Position numbers and translations under genes: made by a program
Part shown: positions 5,126-24,877 of the stretch, in pieces
Numbering within the stretch: the stretch's first letter is position 1
Layout: every line of letters starts with the position of its first letter
Origin: Pseudomonas tructae
GTDB lineage: Bacteria > Pseudomonadota > Gammaproteobacteria > Pseudomonadales > Pseudomonadaceae
NCBI RefSeq assembly: GCF_004214895.1
Contig: NZ_CP035952.1
Span: 1,746,501-1,810,500, forward strand
DNA: 64,000 nt
Direction: 5' to 3'
The notes under the pieces: model-generated
Databases searched by the model: none
Seen by the model: only the letters and a program-made list of their open reading frames with translations
Told to the model about the DNA's origin: nothing

Positions 5126-5215
5126 GGAGAGATGCCGGAGTGGCCGAACGGGACGGATTCGAAATCCGTTGTACTGGCGACAGTACCTAGGGTTCAAATC
5201 CCTATCTCTCCGCCA
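5126..5215 (+). tRNA. tRNA-Ser(CGA), CCA encoded
   Basis: A 90-nt class II tRNA. The acceptor strands GGAGAGA and TCTCTCC pair, with encoded CCA at 5213-5215. The anticodon loop TTCGAAA gives anticodon CGA at 5160-5162, reading UCG codons. The long variable arm (GTACTGGCGACAGTAC region) is typical of serine tRNAs, and the T-arm GGTTCAAATCC is intact. The last 26 nt of the tRNA form most of the left att core of the integrated element, so integration rebuilt rather than destroyed the gene. Confidence 0.97.
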
Positions 5216-5216
5216 T
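5190..5216 (+). other. attL (27-bp direct repeat, tRNA-Ser 3' end)
   Basis: These 27 bases, beginning GGGTTCAAATCCCTATC, span the T-arm, acceptor strand and CCA of tRNA-Ser plus one base. An identical copy is at 10986-11012. Beyond the final CCAT the two flanks diverge. Identity segments of this kind at tRNA 3' ends are the usual target of tyrosine integrases. Confidence 0.9.
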
Positions 5217-5268: not shown

Positions 5269-5284
5269 TTTCAGGCTGATGCTT

Positions 5285-6279: not shown

Positions 6280-6290
6280 TAACACAAGAC

Positions 6291-8776: not shown

Positions 8777-8878
8777 GGTAATGGGCTAAATCGGGCGATA
8801 TTGATATCACATCAAATGTCGCCCATCCCATTGCCCAAGGGATGGATACTTCATTTCATTATTTCAACAAATACAGGG

Positions 8879-9010: not shown

Positions 9011-9152
9011 GAGGCAAGCCGGTTGGATGCGTCAACATCCAGCCCGGCCCGCAAAACCCGCAGGCCCTTCCTGCAAGTCCAGCCATAGTCCCTGCCTTGT
9101 GCACAAAGCCCGGCGAGCCTAATGCCTATCTATCCATACAGTAAAGGCTTGC

Positions 9153-9650: not shown

Positions 9651-9734
9651 GGTTCCGTCTTTGCTATAGGATACCGCTTCTCAGGCATGGGAGCCTGAAG
9701 TTTATGGATAAGTACGAAACAGGAAGTAGGGAAT

Positions 9735-10310: not shown

Positions 10311-10390
10311 CCTTTCTCTAAACAAACACTAAATGACGCCTTGGTACTCCCAGGGCGCATGTCGCTATTGCGGCGTATTTTGGCAGCGCA

Positions 10391-10765
10391 TTACTCGATC
10401 AAGTGAAAGTCATCCCTGGTCCTGGGGCACGGTGTAGCGCCTCTTAAATTGTCTCCCTTCATTGGTGGGTGGCCTGGAAGGAAGAACAATCCTTCTGCCT
10501 CCAGGGCGTAGGCGAGGGCCTGCATCGTCACGCGGCGCAGCTCGGCCCCATACTCCAGGCGCCTTACAGCACCAGGTGTTACACCCGAGCGGAATGCCAA
10601 AGCTTCGATGCTCCAGCCAAGCATCGTGCGCGCTTCGGCGCAGTGGGCGCCACGAAAGCCAAGTGGCAGGTGCTCCATAAGCCATTCCATGGTTTCTAGC
10701 TGTTCTTCATCCAGGGCCAATCGAACGGGCTGCACGTCGTCTTCTTCTGTAGGCATTGGTGTCAT
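10391..10765 (-). CDS. XRE-type DNA-binding regulator, SOS-controlled
   Basis: A 124-residue protein whose middle (ARTMLGWSIEALAFRSGVTP followed by GAVRRLEYG) is a helix-turn-helix of the XRE/Cro type near residues 45-80. The C-terminal part EAEGLFFLPG is common in short phage regulators. The ATG at 10765 is 8 bp from a perfect LexA operator, so transcription should be released on DNA damage. It is probably the remaining immunity or pyocin-type regulator of the element; its operator is not identified. Confidence 0.75.
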   Translation of the reverse strand: MTPMPTEEDDVQPVRLALDEEQLETMEWLMEHLPLGFRGAHCAEARTMLGWSIEALAFRSGVTPGAVRRLEYGAELRRVTMQALAYALEAEGLFFLPGHPPMKGDNLRGATPCPRTRDDFHLIE

Positions 10766-10772
10766 CTTTATA

Positions 10773-10788
10773 CTGTATATTTATACAG
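10773..10788. promoter_or_regulatory. LexA (SOS) box
   Basis: CTGTATATTTATACAG is a perfect CTG-N10-CAG palindrome matching the gammaproteobacterial LexA consensus, and the symmetry extends one base further each side (ACTG/CAGT). It lies between the XRE-type gene and a tiny divergent frame, and could control both. Confidence 0.85.
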
Positions 10789-10802
10789 TGTAAGGCTTGG
10801 CG

Positions 10803-10889
10803 ATGGTCCACGCAAAAAATGGTAGGTGCTGCTACATCGAGACCCGCGCAGGGCGTTGGGAGGGGAGCGTATTTTTAGGGCAGATTTAG
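10803..10889 (+). CDS. Possible 28-residue ORF divergent from the regulator
   Basis: ATG at 10803 opens MVHAKNGRCCYIETRAGRWE and closes at TAG 10887. It starts 15 bp past the LexA box and its 3' end overlaps the TAGGGCA repeats. It may be a real SOS-linked small protein, the remnant 5' end of a longer gene, or chance. The ribosome site is poor. Low confidence. Confidence 0.3.
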   Translation: MVHAKNGRCCYIETRAGRWEGSVFLGQI

Positions 10890-10904
10890 GGCAAAACTAG
10901 GGCC
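10876..10904 (+). repeat. Right TAGGGC(A/C) direct repeats, 11-bp period
   Basis: TAGGGCA at 10876 and 10887, and TAGGGCC at 10898, are spaced exactly 11 bp apart. They mirror the pair near attL and have the same orientation. This suggests a recombination-protein arm site at the right end, about 80 bp inside attR. Confidence 0.6.
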
Positions 10905-10985
10905 GCTATAGGTGTTGCAGCCCGATAGCAAGCGTCAAAGGTCCAATAAATGCGGGGCTCATGCGGCCTGCGCTCCGTTGCGGGC

Positions 10986-11012
10986 GGGTTCAAATCCCTA
11001 TCTCTCCGCCAT
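10986..11012 (+). other. attR (27-bp direct repeat)
   Basis: Exact copy of 5190-5216, without the upstream part of a tRNA. It marks the right end of the element. The native chromosome resumes immediately afterwards with a terminator hairpin that would originally have followed tRNA-Ser. Confidence 0.9.
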
Positions 11013-11020
11013 ACAAATGA

Positions 11021-11056
11021 AAGCCCCTGAAACCAATGGTTTCAGGGGCTTTTTGT
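11021..11056 (+). terminator. Native tRNA-Ser terminator, displaced
   Basis: Arms 11021-11034 and 11038-11051 are perfect (AAGCCCCTGAAACC and its complement) with a 3-base loop and a run of Ts. It lies 9 bp after attR, where the tRNA terminator would have been before integration. Confidence 0.85.
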
Positions 11057-11812
11057 TTGTGGGTTGCACGTAGTTTGCTAAACCTCTGATAGCTGTAAAA
11101 GCCGAAATTTTTGGGCGCTTCGTGATCCTTGTCTGTGACCCATGAGTGAGGGCACCTTAGGCGAAGGTGTAGGCGATAGCGGCCTTGTACAGCGCTCTGC
11201 CTCCTTGCCTGAGCGCTCCTGTGCCTCGTTCTGGTGCTTATGCTCGAAAGGGCGGAATGAGGAGGGTGATGACGGGCTATGGACTTCTTGAATAGACAAT
11301 GCCGGCGAACCTTCAAGGAATTGAAGTGTGCGCTGCAAGGTGTTGCTTGTTTTTCTTTATGAAAGAGTAGGTTAACCAATTACGATGAAGTGGGTTGCAC
11401 TTTTTTGTGTTGGTAGTAGTACCGGTGGTAGTGTGTTTTATATATAGATTTTAATGATGAATGATAATAAGCATGCGTAATGCTTGTGCAGTATTGCCAA
11501 CGCCGGGTTAAAAAGCGCTGAGGGTACTGTTTTACTGGGCTTGAGCCACTTTTTGTATGGCTGAATTCGCTAGGGTTGGTAAAGAGCGTTGGCGGCGAAA
11601 AAGCACATATGCACAATTCTGGTGCAATTAATTCATTGAATGTCGTGGTTTGAGCCAGTTTGGTGCGTGTTTATTAGATTGTTTAGCGATTAGCTCATAG
11701 TTGATTGGATCCAAAGGCTGTGGCATGGTGATTGCTGTGGCAACATCGCGATGCCGTAAAGGTTGATTGTTTAATTTGCCCGGCAAGTCGCCTAATGGAT
11801 TAGGAGCTAGTG
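11057..11812. other. Gene-poor spacer before the biosynthetic block
   Basis: About 750 bp with rising A/T content and no reading frame that looks like a protein; frames on both strands here have no recognisable motif or ribosome site. The last 200 bp probably contain the promoter for the glutamine synthetase gene, but I cannot point to a confident -35/-10 pair. It separates the prophage remnant from the downstream cluster. Confidence 0.6.
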
Positions 11813-13225
11813 ATGGCTAAGACAGTTGCTGATGTAATGGAGTGGGTGAGGGATAAGGGAATCCAGTTCGTGGATTTACGTTTCACCGATACGCGTGGCA
11901 AGGAGCAGCACGTAACGGTACCTGTCTCGCATTTCAATGAGGACAAGTTTGTCGATGGACATGCCTTCGACGGATCGTCCATCGCCGGATGGAAGGGCAT
12001 CGAAGCTTCAGACATGCTGCTGCTGCCCGATCCCAACACTGCCAACATCGACCCTTTTTTCGAACACCCCACGCTGATTTTAAGCTGTGACGTCATCGAC
12101 CCTCTGCACGGACGAGCCTACGAGCGAGATCCTCGTTCGCTGGCAAAGCGAGCGCAAGACTATCTAAAGTCCACGGGACTGGGGGATACGGCATTTTTTG
12201 GGCCTGAGCCTGAATTCTTTGTGTTCGACAGTATCCGCTGGGACGTGAGCATGAAGGGCGCCTTCTACGAGATCGAGGCGCAGGCAGCGGCATGGAATAC
12301 CGGTAAGGCCTTTGAGCATGGCAACAAGGGTTACCGCCCTACGGTGAAGGGGGGGTACTTCCCCGTGCCACCGATTGATTCCGGGCATGACATGCGCTCT
12401 CGGATGTCGCTGGTGCTAGAACAGTTGGGGATCCCGGTCGAAGTGCACCACCACGAGGTCGCGAGTTGCCAGATGGAAATTGGCACGAAGTTTTCGACCC
12501 TGGTCGAGCGCGCGGATTGGTGGCAATTGCAGAAGTACGTGATCCAGAATGTCGCGGCGGAGTATGGAAAGACCGCGACGTTCATGCCCAAGCCGCTAGT
12601 GGGTGATAATGGCTCAGGGATGCATATCCATCAATCGGTCTGGAAAGACGGGCGCAACCTGTTTGCCGGCGAAGGCTATGCGGGGCTTTCGGAGTTTGCA
12701 CTGTTCTACATCGGCGGCATCATCACGCATGCCCGTGCGCTTAACGCTATCACCAATCCCACGACCAATAGTTACAAGCGCTTGGTGCCAGGCTACGAGG
12801 CGCCCGTGAAGCTCGCCTACAGCTCGAAGAACCGCTCGGCGTCGATTCGCATCCCGCATGTGGCGAGCCCGAAGGCGCGTCGGATCGAAGCCCGCTTCCC
12901 CGATCCGATGGCCAATCCTTACCTGGCATTTTCGGCAATGCTCATGGCTGGGCTCGATGGCGTGCAGAGAAAGATCCATCCAGGCGAGGCGGCCACCAAG
13001 GACCTCTATCACCTTCCGCCCGAAGAGGACGCGGAAATCCCGACAGTGTGCAGCAGCCTTGAACAGGCGCTCGAATGCCTGGACAGGGACCGGGCTTTCC
13101 TTACAAGGGGCGGCGTGTTTACCGACGAATACATCGATGCTTACATCGAACTGAAAATGCAAGAGGTCGCGCGCTATCGGATGAGCACGCACCCCGTCGA
13201 GTTCGATATGTACTACTCGCTGTAA
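11813..13225 (+). CDS. Glutamine synthetase type I, second copy inside the biosynthetic block
   Basis: A 470-residue protein close in length and motifs to GlnA, which makes glutamine from glutamate, ammonia and ATP. Visible are [17 protein letters not shown] near the N-terminus, [10 protein letters not shown], the [10 protein letters not shown] metal site, VPGYEAPV with the flap Glu, [20 protein letters not shown], and [10 protein letters not shown] holding the tyrosine that GlnE adenylylates in GlnA. AGGAG at 11802-11806 supports the ATG at 11813. Housekeeping glnA normally neighbours ntrBC, which is absent here, so this is probably an additional copy. It may be a biosynthetic ligase or a resistant target enzyme. 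Confidence 0.9.
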
Positions 13226-13355
13226 ATAAGCGTATTGGTTGCACCGTCAGGCTGCGAGTGCGCAGGTTGTTCATGCGCGCCCGTCGGGTCTGTCGGTGGC
13301 GGGGTTGCAGTGGATGTAAATATATAAATAACACTAACTTTCAGAGCAGGATGCG

Positions 13356-14597
13356 ATGACTGATACTGTTGCAGTTATACCCGGTTACTTGCCGCATGTT
13401 CGACGTCAAGTGGATGACTTTCTCGATGATATAAAAGATGAGGTTGCGCTCGCAGGCGCGGACCGCTTGCACTTGTCTGGCCCTGTCAGGGCTTTGGAAG
13501 ACCTGTTGAAACGCGATCCCATCGTGCGGATGTATGTGCAGGAGATGATTCAACAAGTACCTGCGGAGCGCCAGGTTGTTTCGACCCTCCCAGGCTTGCT
13601 GAACGCCTTGCAACTCATTTCGACCCGCGCCCCCCATTACAATCCTGACCCGCAGCGGACAAATTTTTTCCCTGTCTCAACATTGTTTGTCTACATGATG
13701 ATGACGACGGCGGGACAAGCGGTGTTTCGGATTGAGTCATTTAATAGCTGCATCAGGGACATACTCAAGAGTTGGTGTTTGTACCTGGACTCCCCGCAAT
13801 CCAGAAACGTTCTGCACACCGCTGAGGATGGTTGGCTTTCACCGTCTTCGTGTGAGCGCAACAACTTGCAGGAATATGAAATTCCGGACGAGCATGCGCC
13901 ACACTGGGGGTTTGAGTCGTTCAATGCCTTCTTTCACCGCCAAATAAAACCCGCTTGTCGCCCAATTGCAGAGCCTGACAATAACCAGGTGATCGTCTCG
14001 CCAAACGACGGCACGCTGTACAAGGTGGTCATGGATGCCAAGCCTGCCGATCGCTTCTGGATCAAGAGCCAGCCCTATTCTTTAAAGGATATGCTGGGTG
14101 GAGACTTGGCTTATCGTCTGTTCGAGGGCGGTACGGTCTATCAGAGCTTCCTCGATGGGCGCAACTATCATCGCTTCAAATCCCCCATTTCAGGCGTTGT
14201 GCGCAAGGTTGAAACCATCGAGGGGCTGATGTTCAGCAATGCCGAGTCCATGGGCGAGGACCTGACCGCTGGTACGTATTCCCAGGCATACATGGCGTGT
14301 GTCAATACTCGCAGTCTGGTATTCATCGAAAGTCCCGATCCGCGTATTGGCGTGGTCTGCTTGATCGCCGTGGGTATTTCAGAAATATCGTCGATCACCG
14401 TCAATGCCTATCCCGGCCAGTTGATTGGCAAGGGGGATGAACTGGGATACTTCAGCTATGGCGGCAGTAGTATCTGCTTGCTCTTCCAACCGGGCGTCAT
14501 TCATGAGTTTACTATTGATACTGGCAATACAGGTATCGAGGTGGGATCAAGAGGGCTGGTTTTGAAAGCGGGTCAAAGGATTGCGTTGGTCAAATAG
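13356..14597 (+). CDS. Pyruvoyl-dependent decarboxylase, PsiD/phosphatidylserine-decarboxylase-like
   Basis: A 413-residue soluble protein. Residues about 40-180 resemble the PsiD-like N-terminal domain (FFPVSTLFVYMMMTTAGQAV and the W-x-x-SPQSR-LxT-GW pattern), and about 190-413 the phosphatidylserine decarboxylase catalytic domain. The self-cleavage site reads YGGSS with the likely pyruvoyl-forming Ser at residue 371 (codon 14466-14468), in place of the LGST of membrane-lipid enzymes. There is no membrane segment. PsiD-type relatives decarboxylate free amino acids such as tryptophan, so an amino-acid or peptide substrate is likely. It follows the glutamine synthetase by 130 bp, with AGCAGGA upstream. 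Confidence 0.85.
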   Translation: MTDTVAVIPGYLPHVRRQVDDFLDDIKDEVALAGADRLHLSGPVRALEDLLKRDPIVRMYVQEMIQQVPAERQVVSTLPGLLNALQLISTRAPHYNPDPQRTNFFPVSTLFVYMMMTTAGQAVFRIESFNSCIRDILKSWCLYLDSPQSRNVLHTAEDGWLSPSSCERNNLQEYEIPDEHAPHWGFESFNAFFHRQIKPACRPIAEPDNNQVIVSPNDGTLYKVVMDAKPADRFWIKSQPYSLKDMLGGDLAYRLFEGGTVYQSFLDGRNYHRFKSPISGVVRKVETIEGLMFSNAESMGEDLTAGTYSQAYMACVNTRSLVFIESPDPRIGVVCLIAVGISEISSITVNAYPGQLIGKGDELGYFSYGGSSICLLFQPGVIHEFTIDTGNTGIEVGSRGLVLKAGQRIALVK

Positions 14598-14625
14598 ACC
14601 TCATCAAACAAGGACGGATCTGAAC

Positions 14626-15363
14626 GTGGAAACCACGAATCATCAAGTTTCCGGCGTGATTGCCTGGGAGCAGCTGTTGTCTGGTCGGAACATGGATGTG
14701 TTACAGCATACATTGGCCACTGAAGGTGTGGTGTGCCTGGATGGTTTCCTGCCCGAAGACGTTAGGCAACGTCTTGCGTTGGAAGCCGACGGGTTGTTGG
14801 ACACCTATGGGCGGCGAGTGAATGTTCTGGTCGAGTCGACAGGGAATACCCCGAGAAAGTATGTAAGTGTCGGGCGAAATGATGTGTTTGAGCATGCGCC
14901 GCTTATTGCTGGGTTCTATTCGGATGACAACCTGTTGCGATTTCTTGAATTGTTGGCGAACAACAGTGTCATTGCCTGTCCCTATGAGCCTGAGCAAATC
15001 GTGGTTAATAGAATGAACGAGGTGGGCGATACTCATGGTTGGCACTGGGATGACTATACCTACTCGCTGGTGCTTGTGCTTGAGGCACCCCAAGCACATA
15101 ACGGCGCACAGGTGGAGTATGTGGACGGCACCCACTGGGATAAAAAGTCTGCCAAGGTTGAGCATTATTTGAATACGCTGACGGTTAATCGTCTGCAGTT
15201 GGCGCCTGGCTTTGCCTATGTTTTGCTAGGGAAAAGAGTCATGCACCGGGTCTCGCCGCTGATGTCCAGTGACCTGAGGAAAATTATTTGTTTTTCCTAT
15301 GCGGTTGAGGAAGAGCGCTTCTTGGAAGTGGATCACGGAAGTATGGAGAATATTTATGCCTGA
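14626..15363 (+). CDS. Fe(II)/2-oxoglutarate enzyme of the BesD/HalD amino-acid family, hydroxylase-type triad
   Basis: Start GTG at 14626 after AAGGACGGAT gives 245 residues, close to BesD-type enzymes. Iron ligands are H140 and D142 (GWHWDDYT) and H207 (KRVMHRVS), with R218 suited to 2-oxoglutarate. Compared with BesD as I remember it, the ligands sit at a constant +3 offset and the halogenase Gly is replaced by Asp, which predicts hydroxylation rather than chlorination. R77, E123, H137 and D143 also fall where BesD holds its free amino-acid substrate. It overlaps the next gene by 8 bp, so the two are tightly coupled. Confidence 0.75.
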   Translation: METTNHQVSGVIAWEQLLSGRNMDVLQHTLATEGVVCLDGFLPEDVRQRLALEADGLLDTYGRRVNVLVESTGNTPRKYVSVGRNDVFEHAPLIAGFYSDDNLLRFLELLANNSVIACPYEPEQIVVNRMNEVGDTHGWHWDDYTYSLVLVLEAPQAHNGAQVEYVDGTHWDKKSAKVEHYLNTLTVNRLQLAPGFAYVLLGKRVMHRVSPLMSSDLRKIICFSYAVEEERFLEVDHGSMENIYA

Positions 15364-16813
15364 GAAAAATAACGGTGTGCCGGCGTCGCACCTGACAAAA
15401 AAGCGGCTGCTGTTGATTGGTACTTCGCAAGTACGCCCCTTCATTCTTGACGAGTCTGTAAAAACCGCAGAAGCCTTGGGCCTCGAGCTGATATTGCTCG
15501 ATAACGTCGAAGCGCGATTCATTTCAAAAAATGTGATTGCCGACAGCCACTTCATCGGTGCGCCCATCGACAACCATCAGCCCGAAACGACGCGTGCGAT
15601 CGTCGAAAGTGTCAGGCAAGCGACGCAGGGCAAGGTCGACGCAGTCATCACCTTCCTGAATCCATACGCCGAGCTTGCTGGCATGATGGTCGACGCTTTT
15701 CGTGCGTGCGGAAACAGCGGGGCCTCGGTCGCGGCCGCCCATACCAAATCGACAGCGCGCGAAATACTCTCGAAATTTCCGGATATTGCCACGCCCTATA
15801 GGGTGGTCAAGTCGATGGACGAGGCGGTCGCTGCCTACCATGAGATGGGGGGCGGTAAATTTGTAATGAAACCGATCCATGGAGGCGGATCGGCGCTGGT
15901 TGTCATCAATATCGATAGCGTGCAGAGAGTCGCCGAGGTTTATCAGGAAATCGATCTCGGTTTGCGTGAGTTCGCTTCACGTCCGGACGCCGGTGTGTTT
16001 CTGCTCGACCAGCACCCGGGCATCATGATGGAGCGACAGCTCGAAGGACATGAGGTCGACGTTGAGCTGGTATTGGAAAACGGATCGGTCAAGTTCTGGC
16101 ATGTTTCCGACAACCCCCCGACGGATATCCCGTATCCGGTGGAGAAGGGGGCATCCTATCCGTCGCAATTATCACCCGCCTGGCAAGAGGCGCTGGTCGA
16201 GGCGGCTGGCAAGGCCGTGCAGGCGCTAGGGCTCACGACCGCAAACATGCACGTGGAGATGATGGCTACCGCAGATGGGCCGCGGGTGCTCGAGGTCAAT
16301 GCGAGAATGGGCGGGGCATTCATCTGGCGCCTGATCAAGGCTGTCACGGGGGTCAACCTTGTAGAGCAGGGTATTCGCTCTGTCCTGGGGCTCGATGTTG
16401 TTGGTTACACGCAACCACAGCGAGTGGGTGATGTGCGCTACCTGGTTCCGGGTGCCACAGGTAGGATCGAGCGATTGGACGGGCTGGATGAGGCGCGCGA
16501 GGCACCTGGGGTTGATAGTGTCGTCAGGTTCAAGAAAGCCGGCGAGGATGTGCAACTGCTGCCCGATGACTTTTTCGGCTGGGTGGCAGCTGTTGGGGAC
16601 ACCCATGAGCAGGCTCAGGACGCTGTACTCGCTGCCATAGACACGATTCGTATCGGTATTCGTCAGGCAGATGGCACGTTGCTGGAGCAGACCGGCGCGT
16701 ACGCTCAGGAAAAGGTGGAGGTGCTCAACCTGCTCGCCCCTGAAGTGCGTGACGCGCCGCCATCAACCAAGGTCATGCCTCGAGTGCAGGCTTGCGAGGA
16801 GTTTGCTCAGTGA
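15356..16813 (+). CDS. ATP-grasp amino-acid/peptide ligase (first copy)
   Basis: A 485-residue ATP-grasp protein. The N-terminal Rossmann-like part (KKRLLLIGTSQVRPFILDES) is followed by the ATP-grasp core: GGGKFVMKPIHGGGSALV binds ATP, and LEVNARMGGAFIWRLI supplies the Mg-binding acidic residue and Asn. Such enzymes activate a carboxylate as an acyl phosphate and join it to an amine, as in BacD-type dipeptide ligases. The ATG at 15356 overlaps the preceding gene. The acceptor and donor are unknown. No adenylation or carrier domain lies nearby, so bond formation here is NRPS-independent. Confidence 0.85.
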   Translation: MPEKNNGVPASHLTKKRLLLIGTSQVRPFILDESVKTAEALGLELILLDNVEARFISKNVIADSHFIGAPIDNHQPETTRAIVESVRQATQGKVDAVITFLNPYAELAGMMVDAFRACGNSGASVAAAHTKSTAREILSKFPDIATPYRVVKSMDEAVAAYHEMGGGKFVMKPIHGGGSALVVINIDSVQRVAEVYQEIDLGLREFASRPDAGVFLLDQHPGIMMERQLEGHEVDVELVLENGSVKFWHVSDNPPTDIPYPVEKGASYPSQLSPAWQEALVEAAGKAVQALGLTTANMHVEMMATADGPRVLEVNARMGGAFIWRLIKAVTGVNLVEQGIRSVLGLDVVGYTQPQRVGDVRYLVPGATGRIERLDGLDEAREAPGVDSVVRFKKAGEDVQLLPDDFFGWVAAVGDTHEQAQDAVLAAIDTIRIGIRQADGTLLEQTGAYAQEKVEVLNLLAPEVRDAPPSTKVMPRVQACEEFAQ

Positions 16814-18291
16814 ACCACGTGAGCAACGAGGAGCCCGCCGACCCGGCGGGCTTGTTGGCCTTGAGTAGGGGGGCCGGCGGCGACTTGCTTGACCGAGCTG
16901 CAAGTCGTGGGCCTGAGCTTGATCGACTGGACAGGCGTGAACGGATACTGCGTGGGTATCTCTTCGGGCAGTTGGCGGTCATCGCGAATTTTGCGATCTA
17001 CTATTCGCTGTTTTCCCCTGTGGCCGCTGCGCTGGCGGGGGTTGGCGGCATGGGACAGGGCCGCTCCGTCTACTCGGCGGCTGTGGCGCTGTTTCAGCCG
17101 ATAGCCGGTGTATTGGCTGAGCGTATCGCGGTGAGAACCATACTGGTTGGCGGGTTTGCCTTGCGTGCCTTGATATGGGCCGTGATTTTGCCTTTTGGCT
17201 ATCTCGTACTGCCGTCGGCGGCGCCGCTGTTGTTGCTGTTCCTGGCGCTGATGCTCATCGATGGCGTGGTGGTCTCTATCGTCTCGTTGGTGGATATTGA
17301 TGAAGGCGGTCTGGATCTTCTGGGGCAGCAATATGATTTCCCGGTCGATGACGATCTGCGCAATCGCTATAACTCGATATACGAAGGGTTTGCTTCGGTG
17401 GGGCGAGTCATCATGGCGCCCTTGATGGCGACTTTGGGGCTGGTCATGGCCAGTGTCCTGAATTCTGCTGCCGATGCGCTGGTAATCGTCATGGCTCTGG
17501 GGTTCTTGTTGCCTGCCCTGGTCGGTGCCTTTTTCTATCTGCGCTACATACCGTCGGACCCTGTGTTGCCGCCAAGAGTGGTTGGAGCTTCGGCGCTTTC
17601 TGAAATCGCTGACATCTACGCGGGGCTGAGGTCGGGTTTGCAGCTTACGTGGCAAGTAAAGCGCATTCGATGGCGGATTCTGCTGAATTCAGCTGAGCGC
17701 GCCATCGAAGACTCGATGCTGCTCATCGTGCTGGCCACCTTTGCGTTGAAGGTCCTGGCGCCAGGGGATCTGGCGAAGGGCGCCTTCTATACGGCCTTGC
17801 TGATCGCCGTCGGAAAAGTGGGATCCATCATTTCGGCCTGGGCAATGCATAAATACTGGCGGGCATCTTCCGGAGCCGTGTCGCAGTGGCAGAGGTACAA
17901 GTTTTTCTTTCCCTTGGCATTCGCCGGCACACTGGCAACGGCATTGATGCCTGTCGCTGTACATGTTGCCCAGTCAGGCGCGTTGGCAATGGCTGCTGTG
18001 CTGGCGTCTTTATCGGCAATCCTCTTCAACTTGCTCTTTACTGCCTCTGCGCTGGGGTTCAGGAATCTGATGCAAGGTATTGTCAGCGAGGTCGGCGCCT
18101 CGGGGCGGATTCTTGGTATTCAGGGCATGTTCATAATGGGGACCAGTGCACTGGCCATCCTCGGCTTGTCAGCCATTTTTGCAACAATGACGCTATTGGC
18201 TGCCTTTATCACCACGTCAGCTATTTATATCGGCTATGGCATCGTGCAGTTGCTTCTAGGCCGCAGGTTGATTTTTTCCGGTGGCCATTGA
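16810..18291 (+). CDS. MFS transporter, probable product exporter
   Basis: About 493 residues from a GTG at 16810 that overlaps the previous stop (GTGA). After a polar N-terminal stretch of about 45 residues there are some 12 hydrophobic segments, with a central loop around residues 165-185 and another around 240-275. The family is the major facilitator superfamily; the ligand cannot be read from sequence. Coupling to the ligase gene argues for export of the pathway product or a precursor. Alternative start at 16819. Confidence 0.8.
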   Translation: MNHVSNEEPADPAGLLALSRGAGGDLLDRAASRGPELDRLDRRERILRGYLFGQLAVIANFAIYYSLFSPVAAALAGVGGMGQGRSVYSAAVALFQPIAGVLAERIAVRTILVGGFALRALIWAVILPFGYLVLPSAAPLLLLFLALMLIDGVVVSIVSLVDIDEGGLDLLGQQYDFPVDDDLRNRYNSIYEGFASVGRVIMAPLMATLGLVMASVLNSAADALVIVMALGFLLPALVGAFFYLRYIPSDPVLPPRVVGASALSEIADIYAGLRSGLQLTWQVKRIRWRILLNSAERAIEDSMLLIVLATFALKVLAPGDLAKGAFYTALLIAVGKVGSIISAWAMHKYWRASSGAVSQWQRYKFFFPLAFAGTLATALMPVAVHVAQSGALAMAAVLASLSAILFNLLFTASALGFRNLMQGIVSEVGASGRILGIQGMFIMGTSALAILGLSAIFATMTLLAAFITTSAIYIGYGIVQLLLGRRLIFSGGH

Positions 18292-18447
18292 AGGGCTGTC
18301 TGCCAAGACGAGAACTTGGGTACATAGACGGTGAGGCGGCCATTCCCGTGATGGAGGTGTTGTGCTTGCAGTGGGATGGGGCTGCAGGCAATGAGTTGTC
18401 GTTTCAAGTCATCCGCTCTCAGGACACACAGGCAAAAGGAAAGGCAT

Positions 18448-19428
18448 ATGTGGAAGCAGAATATTCTCGAGACCATTGGCAATACGCCCATGGTGAAACT
18501 CAACAAGATCGTCAGCCACATTCCTGCCACGGTGCTGGCAAAAGTGGAGACGTTCAACCCTGGGAACTCGATCAAGGATCGAATGGCCTTGCGGATGATC
18601 GAGGACGCGGAAAAAGCGGGTTTGTTGAAACCAGGGGGCACTATTATCGAGGGGACGAGCGGGAATACTGGCATGGGCCTGGCGATTGCCTCGGTGATCA
18701 AGGGATACCGGTGTATTTTCACCACCACCGACAAGCAGTCGCGAGAAAAGGTTGATGCCTTGAGGGCGCTGGGTGCCGAAGTTATCGTTTGCCCGACGGA
18801 TGTCGAGCCAGATGACCCACGCTCCTACTATTCGGTCTCTTCACGACTTGAGCAGGAAATTCCGAACTCTTGGAAACCGAACCAGTACGACAACCCCAGT
18901 AACGCGCTTGCCCATTATGAAACAACGGGGCCAGAAATTTTCCAGCAAACCAACGGTCGAGTCACGCACTTGGTGGTTGGCGTTGGCACGGGTGGAACGA
19001 TCAGTGGCACCGGGCGTTACCTGAAAGAAAAAAACCCACACTTGAAAGTGTGGGGTATCGACACCTATGGTTCGGTATTCAAGAAGTACAAGGACACCGG
19101 AGTTTTTGACAAAGAGGAGATCTTCCCTTATGTGACCGAAGGCATAGGCGAGGATTTTCTACCCGAGAATGTCGACTTTTCGATCATTGATCATTTCGAA
19201 AAGGTGACGGACAAGGATGCGGCACTGATGACGCGCGAAATCTCGCGGCAAGAAGGTATTTTTGTCGGCAACTCGGCGGGGGCCGCGCTGGCGGGGTTGG
19301 TGCAGATGGCCGACCAACTTACTGAAGAAGATGTCGTGGTTGTGATATTTCACGATCACGGAACGCGCTACCTTGGGAAAATGTTCAACGATGAGTGGAT
19401 GTTAAAAAAAGAATATATTGCCGTTTAG
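18448..19428 (+). CDS. PLP-dependent beta-replacing enzyme, cystathionine beta-synthase/cysteine synthase type
   Basis: A 326-residue fold-type II PLP enzyme. NPGNSIKDRMAL carries the Schiff-base Lys K43, EGTSGNTGMGLA binds the substrate carboxylate, and [13 protein letters not shown] the phosphate. EGIGEDFLPENVD and FVGNSAGAALAG resemble cystathionine beta-synthase, but the regulatory CBS domains are absent. Members replace the beta substituent of serine or an O-acylserine with a thiol or amine. AAAGGAAAGG precedes the ATG at 18448. The nucleophile here is unknown; formation of a 2,3-diaminopropionate-type or thioether amino acid is possible. It is separate from the housekeeping cysM at 50953. 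Confidence 0.85.
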   Translation: MWKQNILETIGNTPMVKLNKIVSHIPATVLAKVETFNPGNSIKDRMALRMIEDAEKAGLLKPGGTIIEGTSGNTGMGLAIASVIKGYRCIFTTTDKQSREKVDALRALGAEVIVCPTDVEPDDPRSYYSVSSRLEQEIPNSWKPNQYDNPSNALAHYETTGPEIFQQTNGRVTHLVVGVGTGGTISGTGRYLKEKNPHLKVWGIDTYGSVFKKYKDTGVFDKEEIFPYVTEGIGEDFLPENVDFSIIDHFEKVTDKDAALMTREISRQEGIFVGNSAGAALAGLVQMADQLTEEDVVVVIFHDHGTRYLGKMFNDEWMLKKEYIAV

Positions 19429-19483
19429 TCAGTGCCGGGCCGGTTAGACCAGCCTGTCGGTTCGTGGTGACGACCCTGATACG

Positions 19484-19511
19484 TTGAAAACACTATCGCG
19501 CTCGGTATAGG
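19484..19511 (+). promoter_or_regulatory. Possible sigma-70 promoter for the second half of the cluster
   Basis: TTGAAA (19484-19489) and TATAGG (19506-19511) are separated by 16 bp in the 235-bp gap before the aminomutase gene. If real, the cluster has at least two transcription units. Pattern match only. Confidence 0.35.
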
Positions 19512-19663
19512 GAATACCGCCATGCGATCGTCGGGGTCCATCCATAGCGTTAGCTAAAACACCTAAAGTCATGCGCGGCAGGGGGGCGTTCGTAAGCGCT
19601 GCCCACGCAAGCCTGCCTGCCGGGAACATGACGCTCATGGTTATTTCACTGGAGGCTTCAGGG

Positions 19664-20818
19664 ATGTCCGTCTTCGAAAACACTATTTACCCCGTTGGCA
19701 ATTGGAGTGATTGGCGCTGGCAACAGAAGAATGCGATACGTGATGAATTGACACTTCGAGAGCGCTGTGGCGGTTGGCAGGCAGAGGTGACGACGCGCAT
19801 CGAGCACAATCTGCAAAGTCGCAAGATGCAAGTAACGCCTTACTATATTGAATTGATTAAAAAGTCGCTGGATGATACCCCCATCACCGAGCATCCTTTG
19901 TGGCGGCAGGTCGTTCCTTATTGGGACGACAATGCAGTTGGCGGATACGATGGTGCGTCGGAGAACTGGGAGTTGCATCATGAGATGAAAACGCCCATTT
20001 GCCAGCATAAATATGATAATCGCGTCATCCTGCGGATGACCAATACCTGCAATGCCTATTGCCAGTTTTGTTTCGAAGCCCTGCGTACCTTGCAAGTGAG
20101 TTCGGACAAGGCCAACGCCAACACTCACTCATTCCTGGACTCCCTGGAGTACATCCGTAATAACCCGGCGATCGAGGAGGTCATTCTCAGTGGCGGCGAC
20201 CCGCTGATGCTCGCGGATCGCAAACTTGAGGAAAATCTGGCGGCGTTACGCGCGATCAGGGATGACTTGCTGATTCGTGTGCATTCAAGGGCATTGAGTT
20301 TCAATCCATTTCGGGTCACTGATGAGTTGGTGGCCATGCTGGCCAAGTATAAGGTCAACGCCTTTGGTGTGCATGTCTGTCATCCGCTGGAACTCAGCGC
20401 GGACTTCAAGGAGGCGGTTGCGAAAATTCGCAGTGCCGTGCCTATTGTGTTTTCCAATATGCCATTGTTGCGTGGCGTCAATGATAATGAAGACACACTG
20501 CGTACCTTGTTCATCGAGTTGTACCGCATGGGGGTAAAGCCCTACTATCTTTATCATTTCATGCCGTTTTCGCCGGGCGCCTCCGAGTACAAGGCATCCA
20601 TTAAAGAGGCGATTGCCATCATGGACCGGCTCAAGCGCCGTGTCTCCAATATTGCGTTGCCTGAGTATGTACTTCCGCACGCGCAGGGGAAGTTTACCGT
20701 GCCGCTGGTTGATGTTGAGCGCCCTGAGGATCTTCCTCGTTTTGAGGTTTCCGACGGCCAGCGCTATTACACGTTCAAGAACTGGCAGGGGCAATGGTGC
20801 CGCTGGCATGACGTGTAA
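19664..20818 (+). CDS. Radical SAM 2,3-aminomutase (lysine 2,3-aminomutase family), altered substrate pocket
   Basis: A 384-residue protein starting at ATG 19664, which has GGAGG 8 bp upstream. The 4Fe-4S ligands are C129, C133 and C136 (CNAYCQFC); SGGDPLML follows, and the PLP lysine is K343 (AQGKFTVP). Aligned with clostridial lysine 2,3-aminomutase as I recall it, the two Asp that bind the lysine side-chain ammonium (D293 in YVCD, D330 in VVDAPGG) correspond to M300 and P338. It lacks the long C-terminal tail of the clostridial enzyme. It should move an alpha-amino group to the beta position of an amino acid other than lysine. Confidence 0.85.
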   Translation: MSVFENTIYPVGNWSDWRWQQKNAIRDELTLRERCGGWQAEVTTRIEHNLQSRKMQVTPYYIELIKKSLDDTPITEHPLWRQVVPYWDDNAVGGYDGASENWELHHEMKTPICQHKYDNRVILRMTNTCNAYCQFCFEALRTLQVSSDKANANTHSFLDSLEYIRNNPAIEEVILSGGDPLMLADRKLEENLAALRAIRDDLLIRVHSRALSFNPFRVTDELVAMLAKYKVNAFGVHVCHPLELSADFKEAVAKIRSAVPIVFSNMPLLRGVNDNEDTLRTLFIELYRMGVKPYYLYHFMPFSPGASEYKASIKEAIAIMDRLKRRVSNIALPEYVLPHAQGKFTVPLVDVERPEDLPRFEVSDGQRYYTFKNWQGQWCRWHDV

Positions 20819-20845
20819 CTTTCATCTACCAGGCGGTGACTAACC

Positions 20846-22219
20846 ATGAAGCAAGATGCCATTCTTTTCATTGATATCGATGACGGGCCTTCTATTCGCT
20901 ATCAGTATCGTGACCCTCATTTCGCCGCGGCGCGTGCGCTGGGCCTTACGTGTTTAACTGCCGGTGTGTCGGGGCGTGATCATCTTCAGCGCCTTGAGTA
21001 TCAAGGCGGTGAGTATTTTTTGCTGGCGGATTTAAGCGAAGCGGCCATCGTCAACTTGGTAGGCTCGCTGGGCGATCGATACACGGTTCGCGCGATTTTT
21101 TGTTACGCCGGGCATGCTTCCGCACGAGGCGACGTGGGCTGTATTGTTGCTCGCGCCTCGCAGACCTTGGGTTTGGTCTATTCCAACCCCGACGCTATAG
21201 CGGCATGCAATAACAAGTTCCTGATGCGCCAGGTGCTACAGAACAAGCAATTGCGCTCCGTCCCTTTTGCGCTGTGCAACAACGAGCAAATGCTGGCGGC
21301 CGGTGCCGCCCGCGTGGGTTACCCGCTGATTGCCAAACCGGCTTTCGGCGGCGCCTCGGCGTTTATCAAGAAATGTGCTGATTGGGCCGAGTTGCGTGCC
21401 CACTATCAGCAGTATCTCGCGCAACACGATACCTCTGGCTGTGCTGACTTCTACGGTTATGCCCATATGCTCCATGACGAGGAGGGCGCCGCGCTGGAGT
21501 ACATTCCCGGCCGGAGCATCTTGCTGGAAGGCTATATCGAGGGGGTCGAGGGCACGGTGGAGTGCGTGATCGTCGGCGACCGGGTCCACCCCGTGTTGAT
21601 CAACGAAAAGTTGTTGTTGACGGCGCGCAGCGGGACGATCCTGGAAAATCTGCTCATCACGCCACCGACCTCTTTCAGCGAACAACAGTGCGCGCATATT
21701 CGCCAGTACGCCAAGGATTGTCTGCAGGCCATAGGCATGACCAACGCCATCGTCCACCTGGAGTTTCGTCTGACCGAAGCCGGACCTGTGGTCATCGAAA
21801 TCAACTCGCGCCTAGGAGGCCTGTACGTCAACGCCGCTCTTCGTGATCTGGCGGGGGTGGACCCCTATCAGTTGTATGTGTCGTTGCTGCTGGGCGACTC
21901 ACGCGTCGCTGAGGGGCTGCAGGCGCGAGCACAGCGCGCGGCTGATTCGACGCAACATTATGCAATGTTGGCTCTCTACCCCGAGCACAGTGGTTACTTC
22001 CGAGGGGTCCAAGGGGAGGATTATCTCAAGGGCAATGAGTCGATAGTGGAATATGCGCAGCAGGCACCGGGTAGTTACCTGGATGCTGAAGTCGAAGAGC
22101 ATTACTTGCTCAAGTGCTGGGCCCACGTCGAGGATGCGGCGGCTGCTTCGGTATTGCATGATGCGCTTGTGCGGCAGGTGCGGCCGGTCATCGAACAATC
22201 TGTCGGGAGGATCGCATGA
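20846..22219 (+). CDS. ATP-grasp amino-acid/peptide ligase (second copy)
   Basis: A 457-residue ATP-grasp enzyme, clearly distinct in sequence from the first. CNNKFLMRQVL leads into the ATP-grasp core GYPLIAKPAFGGASAFIKK, then LLEGYIEGVEGTVECV and the metal site HLEFRLTEAGPVVIEINSRL. It is like BacD/carnosine-synthase-type ligases that couple amino acids through an acyl phosphate. It begins 27 bp after the aminomutase gene and its stop overlaps the next start. Two ligases imply a product with two peptide or amide bonds, or ligation and later trimming. Confidence 0.87.
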   Translation: MKQDAILFIDIDDGPSIRYQYRDPHFAAARALGLTCLTAGVSGRDHLQRLEYQGGEYFLLADLSEAAIVNLVGSLGDRYTVRAIFCYAGHASARGDVGCIVARASQTLGLVYSNPDAIAACNNKFLMRQVLQNKQLRSVPFALCNNEQMLAAGAARVGYPLIAKPAFGGASAFIKKCADWAELRAHYQQYLAQHDTSGCADFYGYAHMLHDEEGAALEYIPGRSILLEGYIEGVEGTVECVIVGDRVHPVLINEKLLLTARSGTILENLLITPPTSFSEQQCAHIRQYAKDCLQAIGMTNAIVHLEFRLTEAGPVVIEINSRLGGLYVNAALRDLAGVDPYQLYVSLLLGDSRVAEGLQARAQRAADSTQHYAMLALYPEHSGYFRGVQGEDYLKGNESIVEYAQQAPGSYLDAEVEEHYLLKCWAHVEDAAAASVLHDALVRQVRPVIEQSVGRIA

Positions 22220-22944
22220 TGGATCTCTCACCGATATCGAGTAGCCTGCAGCAGCATCACTATTGCCATGTGCCGGATTTTCGGGAGTTGATCGATATCC
22301 CGCCGGCGGCCGCGGAGAGTTTTCGTGCGCACTGGGAGGATCTGGTGCGCGATGAGGCCTTCAAGGACTACACCTACCGCGAACGGCGTATCTTGCGCTA
22401 TCGTCTGCTGCCTTCGCGGCAACTGGAAATGAACACAAACCCCGCGTTCGAATCACCTGTCACCTATGCGGTCAACTACCGCAAAGGGGTGAACATGCTG
22501 AGTTATGCGCAGGCGTCTTTTATCGCTCATCCGGTCTTGCAGCAGCTCGTCGCGGCAGACATCGCCATACTCGAGCCCTACTTGGGCGATCATGCTTACT
22601 CGATCGATATTCACCAGTTTCGCGTGATTGCGCAGGGGCAATCCAGTAGCCCGACCACGTCAGGTATCCATCAAGATGGGCTGGATTGGGTATTCATGCA
22701 TTTTGTCGACGCGTGCAATACGACGCCGGTCGTGTCCAATATCTACTTGAATGAAAAAGCTGAAAGCCGGGTGTTGAGTGTGCCCATGACCCGCTTCCTG
22801 GAAACCCTGGTGGTCGAAGATCGCATTGCCTATCACCAGGCCGGGGACGTTCAGCAACTGTCCGCCGAGGCGCCTGCCTGGCGCGATATTCTTGTGCTTG
22901 GCGTGCGTCGCGAGCACAGCGATGCCGAGCGGGGTGCCTGCTGA
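22216..22944 (+). CDS. Fe(II)/2-oxoglutarate amino-acid hydroxylase, isoleucine-dioxygenase (2OG-Fe_Oxy_2) type
   Basis: A 242-residue protein (241 if the second ATG at 22219 is used; GGGAGG suits either). The family pattern QFRVIAQ...GIHQDGLDW...RIAYHQAG...RDILVLGVRR gives iron ligands H152, D154 and H207 and the 2-oxoglutarate Arg R223. Known members hydroxylate free aliphatic amino acids such as isoleucine, leucine and methionine. It overlaps the preceding ligase gene and abuts the MFS gene through TGATG. It is unrelated in fold subgroup to the BesD-like enzyme upstream. Confidence 0.82.
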   Translation: MMDLSPISSSLQQHHYCHVPDFRELIDIPPAAAESFRAHWEDLVRDEAFKDYTYRERRILRYRLLPSRQLEMNTNPAFESPVTYAVNYRKGVNMLSYAQASFIAHPVLQQLVAADIAILEPYLGDHAYSIDIHQFRVIAQGQSSSPTTSGIHQDGLDWVFMHFVDACNTTPVVSNIYLNEKAESRVLSVPMTRFLETLVVEDRIAYHQAGDVQQLSAEAPAWRDILVLGVRREHSDAERGAC

Positions 22945-24194
22945 TGTCAGACATTGCGCTAGTGCTTTCCAGACGCAATGCGCGCCTGGTGATTTTCGCC
23001 AGGGGCGCCTCGGATTTCGGTGCGTTTCTCAATATGGTCGCACTGGCCACCTATGTCTATTGGCTCAGCCAGAGCGTGGTTTTCGTCAGCGTATTTCTCG
23101 CATGTCGAGTCACCGGTGGCGTCGTTGCCAGCGTGTTCGGGGTGATGTTCTTCCGACGTTTTACCGGTCGAGGTCCGCTGGCAGGCCTGGATTTCTTCAG
23201 GGCGTTATTGTTGTTGCCATTGCTGTTCTTGTTGCCAGCTCATCAACTGACGATCCTGCCCTTTGTCGCGTTTGGCATTGGTGTGGCGAACTCGCTGTTT
23301 GCAATTGGCATCAATAGCCAGTTGCCCACATGGATTGCGCCTAGCCAGAGGGTGGCCACCAATGCATGGTTGACGTCGGCTGCGGCTACAGGCGCCATCT
23401 TTGGCAGTCTGGTCTCGGGGTTGCTGATTGCGGCGGGAGGATTCGCCGCGGTGCTGGCTGCCAACATCGCGACTTATGTCATCGCCGCCTGCTTGATCTT
23501 GCCATTGCGTGCCCTGTTCAGCGCAACCGCCGCGCCACGCCGGGCACTGAGTGCCGAGTGGCGCGAGTTGAGCAAGGGCTTGCGCGGCGTGCCTGTGTTG
23601 GCCGCCATGCTCCTCGTCACGATGCTCGATACCCTGGGTAGCGCCGCGCATAACGTCGGTTTTCCGGTGTTGTCCGAGTACATCTCGCCTGACGTTGCCA
23701 AGACGGTCATGGGCTACCTGTTGGCCGTTTGGGCGTGTGGCAAGTTCGTGGGCGCGCGCGTGGCCAGTCGGATGCTGAGAAATCGTGGCAACCCAGGTAT
23801 GGAACGCCTGTTCCTGGCTGGGGTGGCGTTGATGTCCAGTGGATTTATCTTGACGTTTCAGCAAGCCGAACTGTGGATCGCGCTACTGGCCGTCATATGG
23901 GCCGGGGTCGGTGACGGGTTGGCGGAAGTGGCATTGTTATCACGCGCGCAGCGTGAGCCCGACACGTTGCGCTTGCCATTGTTCAGCCTGTTGACCCTGA
24001 TTCAAATGGCGGGCTTCGGTGTGGGCATGCTGCTGGTCGGACCGTTTTATGTGATCTGGCCCCCGGCCAAGGTGATCATCCTGTTCCACGGCTTGCCGCT
24101 AACTGCGGTCATTGTCACGGCGGTATGGTTGTATTTCAGGCATCGAGCGGCCTTATCGAAAACCATCAGTCCGCAATACGCTGAGCAAGAGTGA
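22944..24194 (+). CDS. MFS transporter (second), last gene of the cluster
   Basis: A 416-residue, 12-segment major facilitator with the short N-terminus MSDIALVLSRRNARLVIFAR typical of MFS efflux proteins of the enterobactin-exporter/macrolide-efflux branch. The start overlaps the previous stop by one base (TGATG). A strong terminator follows within 4 bp. Together with the first MFS gene, it suggests separate export of product and intermediate, or export plus uptake. Confidence 0.85.
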   Translation: MSDIALVLSRRNARLVIFARGASDFGAFLNMVALATYVYWLSQSVVFVSVFLACRVTGGVVASVFGVMFFRRFTGRGPLAGLDFFRALLLLPLLFLLPAHQLTILPFVAFGIGVANSLFAIGINSQLPTWIAPSQRVATNAWLTSAAATGAIFGSLVSGLLIAAGGFAAVLAANIATYVIAACLILPLRALFSATAAPRRALSAEWRELSKGLRGVPVLAAMLLVTMLDTLGSAAHNVGFPVLSEYISPDVAKTVMGYLLAVWACGKFVGARVASRMLRNRGNPGMERLFLAGVALMSSGFILTFQQAELWIALLAVIWAGVGDGLAEVALLSRAQREPDTLRLPLFSLLTLIQMAGFGVGMLLVGPFYVIWPPAKVIILFHGLPLTAVIVTAVWLYFRHRAALSKTISPQYAEQE

Positions 24195-24197
24195 GCA

Positions 24198-24236
24198 AGC
24201 CCCCTGAGTGTAAGCCCAGGGGGCTTTTTAGTTTTT
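24198..24236 (+). terminator. Rho-independent terminator closing the cluster
   Basis: Arms AGCCCCCTG (24198-24206) and CAGGGGGCT (24217-24225) with a 10-base loop are followed by TTTTTAGTTTTT. It lies just after the last MFS gene and sets the right limit of the biosynthetic block. Confidence 0.9.
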
Positions 24237-24314
24237 GCCTATCAGACAATCCTTATCTATTTTCCAGGCTGGTCGATACTCAAGGTAATTCACCCTTACC
24301 CAAGGAGTATCAGC

Positions 24315-24689
24315 ATGAACGGCAAATCTGTTGCTAGCGCTGCAGGGTTGTTGGTTTTCAGTGGGGCCTGCCTGGCCGCGACGCCGGTGGCGCAAGGGGT
24401 GATTACCTTCACCGGCAGTATTGTCGAGGCGCCCTGCATGGCATCAGAGCGCTCCGGAGTGCTCAGCCTCGATGATTGCCCGGCGCAAATGCGCGGGACC
24501 CGGGTCGATCTGCACAGGGTTGAGCCGCAGGCGTCGGTGAGTGCCCCCGATCTTGCGCCGGTCAACGTCAAGCTGGTCGCCGACAGCGGCACGGCGGGGC
24601 GTTATTACCATCAGCGCTATGCGCTGATGGATGCTTCGGGCAAGCCCATTACCCGTGGCACCTTTCTGGTTACCTTGACCACGCCATAG
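24315..24689 (+). CDS. Small secreted protein, type 1 fimbrial-like
   Basis: A 124-residue protein with signal peptide MNGKSVASAAGLLVFSGACL cut after ALA-type residues. The mature start GVITFTGSIVEAPC, with a second Cys in LDDCPAQ about 30 residues on, resembles the first strand and disulfide of type 1 pilins and related spore-coat-U-like adhesins. There is no chaperone or usher beside it. AAGGAG precedes the ATG. It is monocistronic. Confidence 0.7.
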   Translation: MNGKSVASAAGLLVFSGACLAATPVAQGVITFTGSIVEAPCMASERSGVLSLDDCPAQMRGTRVDLHRVEPQASVSAPDLAPVNVKLVADSGTAGRYYHQRYALMDASGKPITRGTFLVTLTTP

Positions 24690-24877
24690 GCTGCTCTACA
24701 CGCGCTTGGATTTTCAAACGCCAACTGGTAGCGTGCAGCACCTCGCTGCATTGCCCGATCCCTGCCGCCATCGTTGCTGGTCAAAAGCCGACGTGCGCGG
24801 GTACCCGCTGCCTCATTCAAGAGCGCTGGCGCAGGTAGCATCGGGCGATGCACAGTCATTCGCAAAGGGAGTTCACA

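Follow-up and report, generated by a model that had tools for sequence, protein, structure and literature searches.

A ten-gene locus beside tRNA-Ser in Pseudomonas tructae that joins a portable four-gene cassette to a rare six-gene block carrying a second glutamine synthetase

Gene content of the locus

We analyzed a 64,000-nucleotide stretch (hereafter the window, to which all positions refer) of the 5.69-Mb, single-contig genome of Pseudomonas tructae, in which ten genes, designated A to J, span positions 11813-24194. A preliminary description made from the sequence alone had read them as a single pathway for a modified amino acid or small peptide, independent of nonribosomal peptide synthetases (NRPS). 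Our results indicate that the locus is instead made of two modules, a rare six-gene block (A-F, module 1) and a widespread four-gene cassette (G-J, module 2) whose members correspond to pboF-I of the Pbo cluster of Pseudomonas syringae pv. phaseolicola. The genes and the feature that closes them are as follows.

11813..13225, + strand: A, second type I glutamine synthetase (GlnA-like), 470 amino acids; PF00120 (463 bits), PF03951
13356..14597, + strand: B, PsiD-like pyruvoyl decarboxylase, 413 amino acids; PF02666, PF12588
14626..15363, + strand: C, HalD/BesD-family Fe(II)/2-oxoglutarate (2OG) enzyme with an HxD motif, predicted hydroxylase type; GTG start uncertain; PF23169 (225 bits)
15356..16813, + strand: D, predicted ATP-grasp L-amino acid ligase (LAL) with an LAL_C2 domain; PF18603, PF13535
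16810..18291, + strand: E, polytopic membrane protein, tentatively a transporter like those of the major facilitator superfamily (MFS); the GTG start is our choice; MFS_1 at E=0.72
18448..19428, + strand: F, pyridoxal phosphate (PLP) enzyme resembling cystathionine beta-synthase and cysteate synthase; PF00291 (257 bits)
19664..20818, + strand: G, radical S-adenosylmethionine enzyme of the KamA family, likely a 2,3-aminomutase; cassette gene 1 (= pboF); PF04055
20846..22219, + strand: H, predicted ATP-grasp ligase; cassette gene 2 (= pboG); PF13535
22216..22944, + strand: I, Fe(II)/2OG enzyme of the isoleucine-dioxygenase type; cassette gene 3 (= pboH); PF10014 (2OG-Fe_Oxy_2, 122.5 bits)
22944..24194, + strand: J, MFS exporter; cassette gene 4 (= pboI); PF07690 (MFS_1)
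24212..24226, + strand: terminator-like hairpin with a T tail, 17 bp past J

The ten open reading frames (ORFs) are free of internal stops and all lie on the + strand, as had been described. Nine of the ten proteins score above the Pfam gathering threshold, which upholds the families named for them; the exception is E, previously called an MFS exporter, which belongs to no Pfam or NCBIfam family at E≤1e-3 and whose sole Pfam match at E≤10 is MFS_1. Most neighboring genes overlap or are closely spaced (28, −8, −4, 27, −4 and −1 bp with the starts chosen), as had been claimed for the whole cluster, but 130, 156 and 235 bp separate A from B, E from F and F from G, the last being the widest spacing of the cluster. 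The strong terminator announced for the end of the locus corresponds to the hairpin after J; since shuffled sequence yields nearly as many terminator-like sites (a mean of 17.9, versus 21 observed in 9000-26000), only its location past the last gene supports it. A second, weaker site of this kind lies within the A-B gap (13252-13265). None was found on the + strand of the F-G gap, and a search of the + strand upstream of A found no sigma-70-like site. The AT-rich base use noted earlier is evident from the G+C content of the ten genes, 0.507-0.589 versus 0.603 for the window. NRPS, polyketide synthase (PKS) and carrier-protein families are absent from the Pfam and NCBIfam lists of the ten proteins (for F, from the best 25 of 36 NCBIfam matches), again as proposed, and the gene content supports amino acid or small-peptide chemistry that proceeds without an NRPS. 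An Rfam scan of 10900-24500 returned a single match, below threshold.

G-J as a stand-alone cassette

With G as the query, 38 loci were retrieved genome-wide, so that G is present in all of them by construction; the other genes were called by tblastn at E≤1e-5 with at least half of the query covered. H, I and J are each found in 35 of these loci, and the four genes occur together in 35/38. J is at least 45% identical in 31 of the 35 complete loci, the other four having a distant MFS protein (24-28%). The three incomplete loci are L030, whose contig ends right after G, and L043 and L044, which carry distant KamA proteins (33%); the identity of G across the 38 loci ranges from 33 to 80%. None of the 38 contains A, B, C, E or F. 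The D query matches 16 of them at only 20-26% identity, and these matches overlap better-scoring ones except at L038, where D scored best on the place of H (23%). Because D and H themselves share 23% identity, we take these matches as cross-matches to the H-type ligase. In 35 of the 38 loci the sequence extends 10 kb upstream of G and could accommodate the A-F block of 7.6 kb; at L011, L028 and L037 less than 1 kb lies upstream of G and the block cannot be judged. The expectation that the aminomutase, both ATP-grasp genes and the PsiD-like gene would travel together is thus not borne out, and the notion of a single ten-gene pathway is weakened, since the ten genes were not found together elsewhere in the genomes covered and fall into a widespread cassette of four and a separate rare block of six.

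Beyond the cassette, the most shared neighbor family occurs in only 9 of the 38 loci (in a coarse clustering of ORFs, which does not separate H from I), which indicates that the cassette occupies many unrelated sites. Its hosts include Pseudomonas, Dickeya, Xenorhabdus, Burkholderia, a metagenome-assembled genome (MAG) of the Neisseriaceae, a member of the Thiotrichales and three Rhodobacteraceae-type genomes, and it also lies on a 3.2-Mb replicon of Burkholderia cenocepacia. Within the genus, G was found at E≤1e-80 in 5 of 149 sampled genomes, the window's own included, and the KamA protein closest to G is named from Pseudomonas savastanoi pv. glycinea (83%). G-J is a portable, independent cassette found in many bacteria. 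We found no paper on it as a stand-alone unit in the open-access literature, subscription papers being mostly outside the search.

Two cassette loci carry additional genes of similar types. In Pseudomonas fildesensis (L009, 17111-19099), an inverted pair consisting of a ligase-like gene (33%) and a distant KamA-like gene (23%) lies about 2.6 kb past the cassette. In a Paracoccaceae MAG (L040, 14442-16542), an extra ligase and an isoleucine-dioxygenase-type gene follow the cassette, as if the product gained a residue.

The first cassette enzyme, G, contains the sequence CNAYCQFC (CxxxCxxC) and scores 205 bits against the lysine 2,3-aminomutase equivalog (cut-off 525) and 194.2 bits against TIGR00238, the KamA family, just below its cut-off of 199.2. 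G keeps the GVND motif, and YHFMPFSPG replaces the CDLS stretch of lysine 2,3-aminomutase. This variant, together with an FCFEALRT motif, is common to 37 of 39 sequences, that of the window included; two distant proteins are without both. In lysine 2,3-aminomutase the side-chain amine of lysine is presumably held by D293 and D330, and we assume this role for the aspartate that is replaced in G. With one of the two aspartates missing, G is, judging from its motifs, no canonical lysine enzyme; the earlier assignment as a 2,3-aminomutase remains likely at the level of the KamA family. The substrate pocket is consistently altered in this KamA subfamily, and the amino acid whose amine is shifted may be one other than lysine. 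The second enzyme, H, exceeds the cut-off for ATP-grasp_4 (PF13535) and has weak matches to LAL structures of the Protein Data Bank (PDB), hence its prediction as a ligase.

A rare six-gene block

Module 1 is a rare block. D was found at E≤1e-40 in one of 298 sampled genomes of the genus and B at E≤1e-60 in one of 398, in both cases the window's own. A protein search that scored 7996 candidates returned 34 proteins for D at E≤1e-3, one of them D itself; next comes a protein of 83% identity, and the closest named ones belong to P. syringae (71%) and Burkholderia ubonensis (65%). Close relatives of B occur in Pseudomonas soli (87%), Burkholderia cepacia (70%), P. syringae pv. aptata (69%) and Nocardia (69%). 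Three matches of B and three of D report identical longest contigs (11481, 9596 and 9305 bases), which points to linkage of the two genes elsewhere. The P. soli matches of B and of G (75%) both report a contig of 138290 bases, and P. soli may therefore hold parts of both modules on one contig, as far as equal contig size can tell. The P. soli G shares 95.6% identity with its counterpart in Pseudomonas sp. GD03858, in whose genome no D match was found.

A search of 115 relatives found D in no genome but the window's own. It was likewise not found in 8 cassette-bearing genomes, in 65 genomes of the genus Burkholderia and in 398 genomes of its family (at most three candidates per genome scored in the matches shown); these are weak negatives, since no genome in the three sets is known to hold a match. 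D has no match in viral contigs. On plasmids, 289 records match D, with identities of at most 29.3% among the best 20 of the 289, and E has no match.

B is related to the L-tryptophan decarboxylase chains 8zia and 8x4q, and the PSD domain pair (PF02666 and PF12588) together with a GGS site marks it as PsiD-like. Residues G369-G370-S371-S372, which we take to be the self-cleavage site, are invariant in 8 aligned sequences. On a Photobacterium damselae plasmid (L059, 1795-4657), a PsiD-like decarboxylase gene adjoins that of a basic amino acid/polyamine antiporter, which hints at basic amino acid substrates in this branch.

C belongs to the HalD family, with 225 bits against PF23169 (cut-off 26), which agrees with its earlier description as a BesD-like 2OG enzyme. 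In the alignment, it carries HWD where the solved halogenase chains 7u6i, 7u6h and 6nie carry HWG, and it scores 126.7 against an equivalog cut-off of 450, both of which set it apart from BesD-type halogenases. Because loss of the carboxylate ligand accompanies halogenation (PMC10187165; papers cited here and below by PMC number were accessible in part, and our statements refer to those parts), C, which keeps HxD, should be an oxygenase that hydroxylates rather than a halogenase. Four of its residues (E122, D142, R76 and H136) align by hand with E123, D143, R77 and H137 of BesD, which contact the amine and carboxylate of lysine (PMC13244439). Six residues are named in the accessible part of that paper; the four that can be compared are all kept in C, and the other two fall beyond the alignment. 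Conservation of these four lysine contacts suggests that C may act on a basic amino acid.

HalD-family genes also occur on plasmids. In Yersinia frederiksenii (L055, 8905-16110), one such gene (42% identical to C) is followed by methyltransferase, ATP-grasp and PLP enzyme genes; the row, another amino-acid-modifying cluster, lies within a few kb of type III secretion genes. A Peribacillus plasmid (L057) carries one flanked by genes for an aminotransferase and an amino acid permease, and a Roseomonas mucosa plasmid (L058) has one immediately before an NRPS gene.

The remaining proteins of the block are less sharply classified. D is related to BL00235 (3vot, E=1.3e-19) and exceeds the LAL_C2 cut-off, from which a ligase is predicted. 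E has many hydrophobic stretches, but no credible relative in the PDB (best E 0.17), and its AlphaFold2 model made without an alignment (pLDDT 48.5) is too poor for use; its reading as an MFS exporter is tentative. F reaches 448 bits against the CysteaSynCapA equivalog (cut-off 600) and 442 against a second equivalog (cut-off 510), too low for assignment to cysteate synthase or cystathionine beta-synthase, and falls short of every equivalog cut-off among the best 25 of its 36 NCBIfam matches. Its nearest solved chain is 9k2p.

A probably foreign and apparently complete glutamine synthetase

A scores 666 bits against the NCBIfam GlnA equivalog (cut-off 429), as expected of a type I glutamine synthetase (GS), and only 204 against the glutamylputrescine synthetase equivalog (cut-off 650). 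The genome contains eight GS matches at E≤1e-20, A counted, and between A and the best of the others, which we take as the housekeeping copy, identity is 62-63%. When the two are aligned, the motifs that we take to bind glutamate, ATP and metal, as well as the presumed adenylylation tyrosine, are all kept in A, whose reading frame is open. The nearest solved chain is 9k2n, which is GlnA-1 of Acinetobacter baumannii (PMC12829801). A shares with 9k2n, and not with the host copy, a shortened HHEVASCQ loop. For this reason, A was probably acquired from outside and is unlikely to be a duplicate made within the host. We had considered the loop, one residue shorter, as an adaptation, an idea rejected because 9k2n has it too. 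Likewise, the adjacent codes of 9k2n and 9k2p, nearest to A and F, had raised the possibility that both chains come from one cluster, which the identity of 9k2n dismisses.

A variable slot beside tRNA-Ser

To the left of the cluster, a tRNA gene and a repeat of its 3′ end were located:

5190..5216, + strand: 3′ end of tRNA-Ser(cga), left copy of a 27-bp direct repeat (att-like)
10986..11012, + strand: second (right) copy of this 27-bp repeat, bordering a remnant element of 5.8 kb immediately left of the cluster

The two copies are perfect and bracket 5217-11012, which bears out the tRNA island reported earlier. The bracketed DNA is a remnant tRNA-Ser integration element of 5.8 kb with a DNA adenine methylase-like frame (139 amino acids) and, by eye only, phage-lysis-like pieces. 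The cluster is not cargo of this element, a candidate that we rejected, as it lies beyond the repeat pair and begins about 800 bp outside it.

Comparison with the genome of one relative (G007) defines the slot. Its right flank agrees with that of the window at 86-87%, and the DNA preceding the tRNA, with a purC-like gene named by eye, at 94%. Its fetched stretch holds a single copy of the tRNA-Ser 3′ end, and the sequence that follows also matches window 10986-11073, from which we conclude that G007 lacks the 5.8-kb element. In the next 30 kb or so, tblastn (E≤1e-3) finds none of the ten genes, and homology starts again at window 24234, that is, 40 bp past the J stop. In G007 (C9:125100-156074; L068 and L074), the slot from tRNA-Ser to the counterpart of the gene at window 24848 is filled by other DNA of roughly 30 kb, in which an ORF of 3448 amino acids lies. 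In G020 and G029 the two flanks are far apart, and a view of three relatives based on the right flank found no tRNA or cluster in the stretches fetched. The ten-gene cluster occupies a variable slot at tRNA-Ser, which fits the horizontal gain proposed earlier; the locus was probably placed horizontally.

Interpretation

The two-module make-up of the locus rests on the recurrence of G-J without A, B, C, E and F. From it and from the gene families, we infer reactions and substrates, a joint action of the modules and GS as the target. We give an even chance to the reading that two NRPS-free modules for peptides make up a composite locus whose product poisons GS, the foreign GS protecting the producer. 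Each module has its own predicted ligase of the ATP-grasp type, one Fe(II)/2OG oxygenase and one membrane protein. In module 2, the KamA enzyme G would shift an alpha-amino group to the beta carbon, I would hydroxylate the resulting beta-amino acid or its partner, H would couple the beta-amino acid to another amino acid and J would export the product. Module 1 would furnish the second building block or a second peptide. Here lysine, ornithine or another basic amino acid would be hydroxylated by C; B may catalyze a decarboxylation, F may act on a serine-type substrate by attaching a nucleophile to its beta carbon, and D would carry out the ligation. The product, or a part of it released by peptidases, would inhibit GS, and A would keep the producer alive.

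That A is a self-protecting copy of the target is its most likely role by analogy: a complete foreign GS sits within a peptide cluster, which suggests a GS-directed product. There are precedents for the target and for the strategy. Tabtoxin inhibits GS, and the antimetabolite toxins of P. syringae target enzymes of glutamine or arginine synthesis (PMC3927611); producers of phaseolotoxin carry argK, a gene for a resistant ornithine carbamoyltransferase, inside the toxin cluster (PMC8473136). In its most specific form, a captured cassette fused with the rare six-gene module would yield a new NRPS-free peptide antimetabolite that contains a beta-amino acid together with a basic amino acid bearing a hydroxyl group, inhibits GS and is tolerated through the foreign, product-tolerant GS; as a whole, this statement is rather unlikely to hold.

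Several observations weigh against the self-protection and two-module reading. Tabtoxin resistance is conferred by an acetyltransferase, with no GS copy, in the accessible part of PMC3927611. GS copies beside such genes can instead supply glutamine. The weak terminator-like site in the A-B gap could separate A from the rest, and no sigma-70-like site was found before A on the + strand. The likely 2,3-amino shift by G is read from its family, for which the TIGR00238 score is just under the cut-off. No D match is listed for the 138290-base contig of P. soli, so that the module may vary or the coincidence of sizes may mislead. In the four plasmid neighborhoods viewed among 49 matching records, distant PsiD-like relatives (33-39%) lie outside obvious peptide clusters. 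Finally, the two modules could serve unrelated products.

This last view, that two independent clusters sit side by side in one variable slot and make separate compounds with no hybrid molecule, is a real though doubtful possibility. It accords with the occurrence of module 2 alone at many unrelated sites, of B and D on 9-12 kb contigs elsewhere, and with the F-G gap being the widest of the cluster; it is at odds with the shared strand, the lack of a + strand terminator-like site between F and G, the single hairpin after J and the possible joint presence of both modules in P. soli. Moreover, pboA-pboG form one operon that likely includes pboHI (PMC8473136), and this placement of the cassette with other biosynthetic genes means that it can be captured by a larger pathway. 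Contiguity, the single strand and the one end hairpin speak for another arrangement, one ten-gene pathway leading to a single tripeptide-type product, and mangotoxin, a tripeptide, is indeed made with two ATP-grasp ligases (PMC13185094); given that the ten genes were not found together elsewhere and that the cassette is complete without the rest, we hold this to be improbable.

The role assigned to A is open to a different objection. GS-fold enzymes can ligate amines, and a supply of glutamine requires no special residues, so that A could be a biosynthetic enzyme (for gamma-glutamylation or amidation) or a glutamine supplier and not a protective copy. This is on the whole unlikely: A exceeds the GlnA cut-off, misses that for glutamylputrescine synthetase and keeps the canonical motifs, which nevertheless leaves a supply role compatible, and its foreign origin does not discriminate between these readings. 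The product might also be a signal or regulator rather than a poison. The authors of the Pbo study propose that Pbo metabolites participate in regulating phaseolotoxin synthesis, and a polar pboG mutant makes no phaseolotoxin and is Tox-minus (PMC8473136). Since that proposal was itself drawn from polar mutants, and since a target-type GS copy argues for a poison, we regard a signal as distinctly improbable.

If the composite reading is true, the spare GS points to the target ahead of the compound and makes the discovery of the product directly testable. The cassette is a small orphan pathway shared by Pseudomonas, Dickeya, Xenorhabdus, Burkholderia and others, and one solution would explain many loci.

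Comparison with known systems

The locus is an NRPS-free and unusual combination of two modules, one of them widespread and partly published. The earlier statement that no characterized cluster has this combination stands for the ten genes together, for which we found no paper in the open-access literature (subscription papers were again mostly outside the search), but not for the cassette, which is part of the published Pbo cluster. The bes pathway of Streptantibioticus cattleyicolor resembles the locus in having a BesD-family Fe/2OG enzyme that acts on a free amino acid. In the 16.6 kb around the plasmid HalD-family gene of that species, which we assume to be besD as the record is without annotation, only C finds a match (31%, E≤1e-3), and C differs in having HxD instead of HxG.

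Tabtoxin is comparable as the product of a dipeptide pathway with a D-Ala-D-Ala-ligase-like enzyme (TblF), a transporter (TblR) and a GS-inhibiting product (PMC3927611). Compared by families, the two differ in that the beta-lactam synthase, clavaminate synthase, GMC-oxidoreductase and Tab aminotransferase types are not among the ten assignments made here. The mbo operon for mangotoxin likewise builds its tripeptide with two ATP-grasp ligases and an oxidase, but the latter is a haem-oxygenase-like diiron enzyme and not an Fe/2OG enzyme, and the accessible part of the paper names neither an aminomutase nor a GS or a decarboxylase (PMC13185094).

The closest likeness is to Pbo of P. syringae pv. 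phaseolicola, which we compared by its description. Table 1 of PMC8473136 assigns pboF to a lysine-2,3-aminomutase model, pboG to an L-amino acid ligase model, pboH to an isoleucine hydroxylase model and pboI to the MFS. These are the same four families, ordered as in G-J on one strand, and they end the likely pboA operon. The company of the cassette differs: in Pbo it stands with NRPS/PKS-type genes, whereas here it follows the GS, PsiD-like, HalD-like, ligase, membrane-protein and cystathionine-beta-synthase-like genes. Solving the cassette would help explain why pboF-I sit in Pbo and affect phaseolotoxin.

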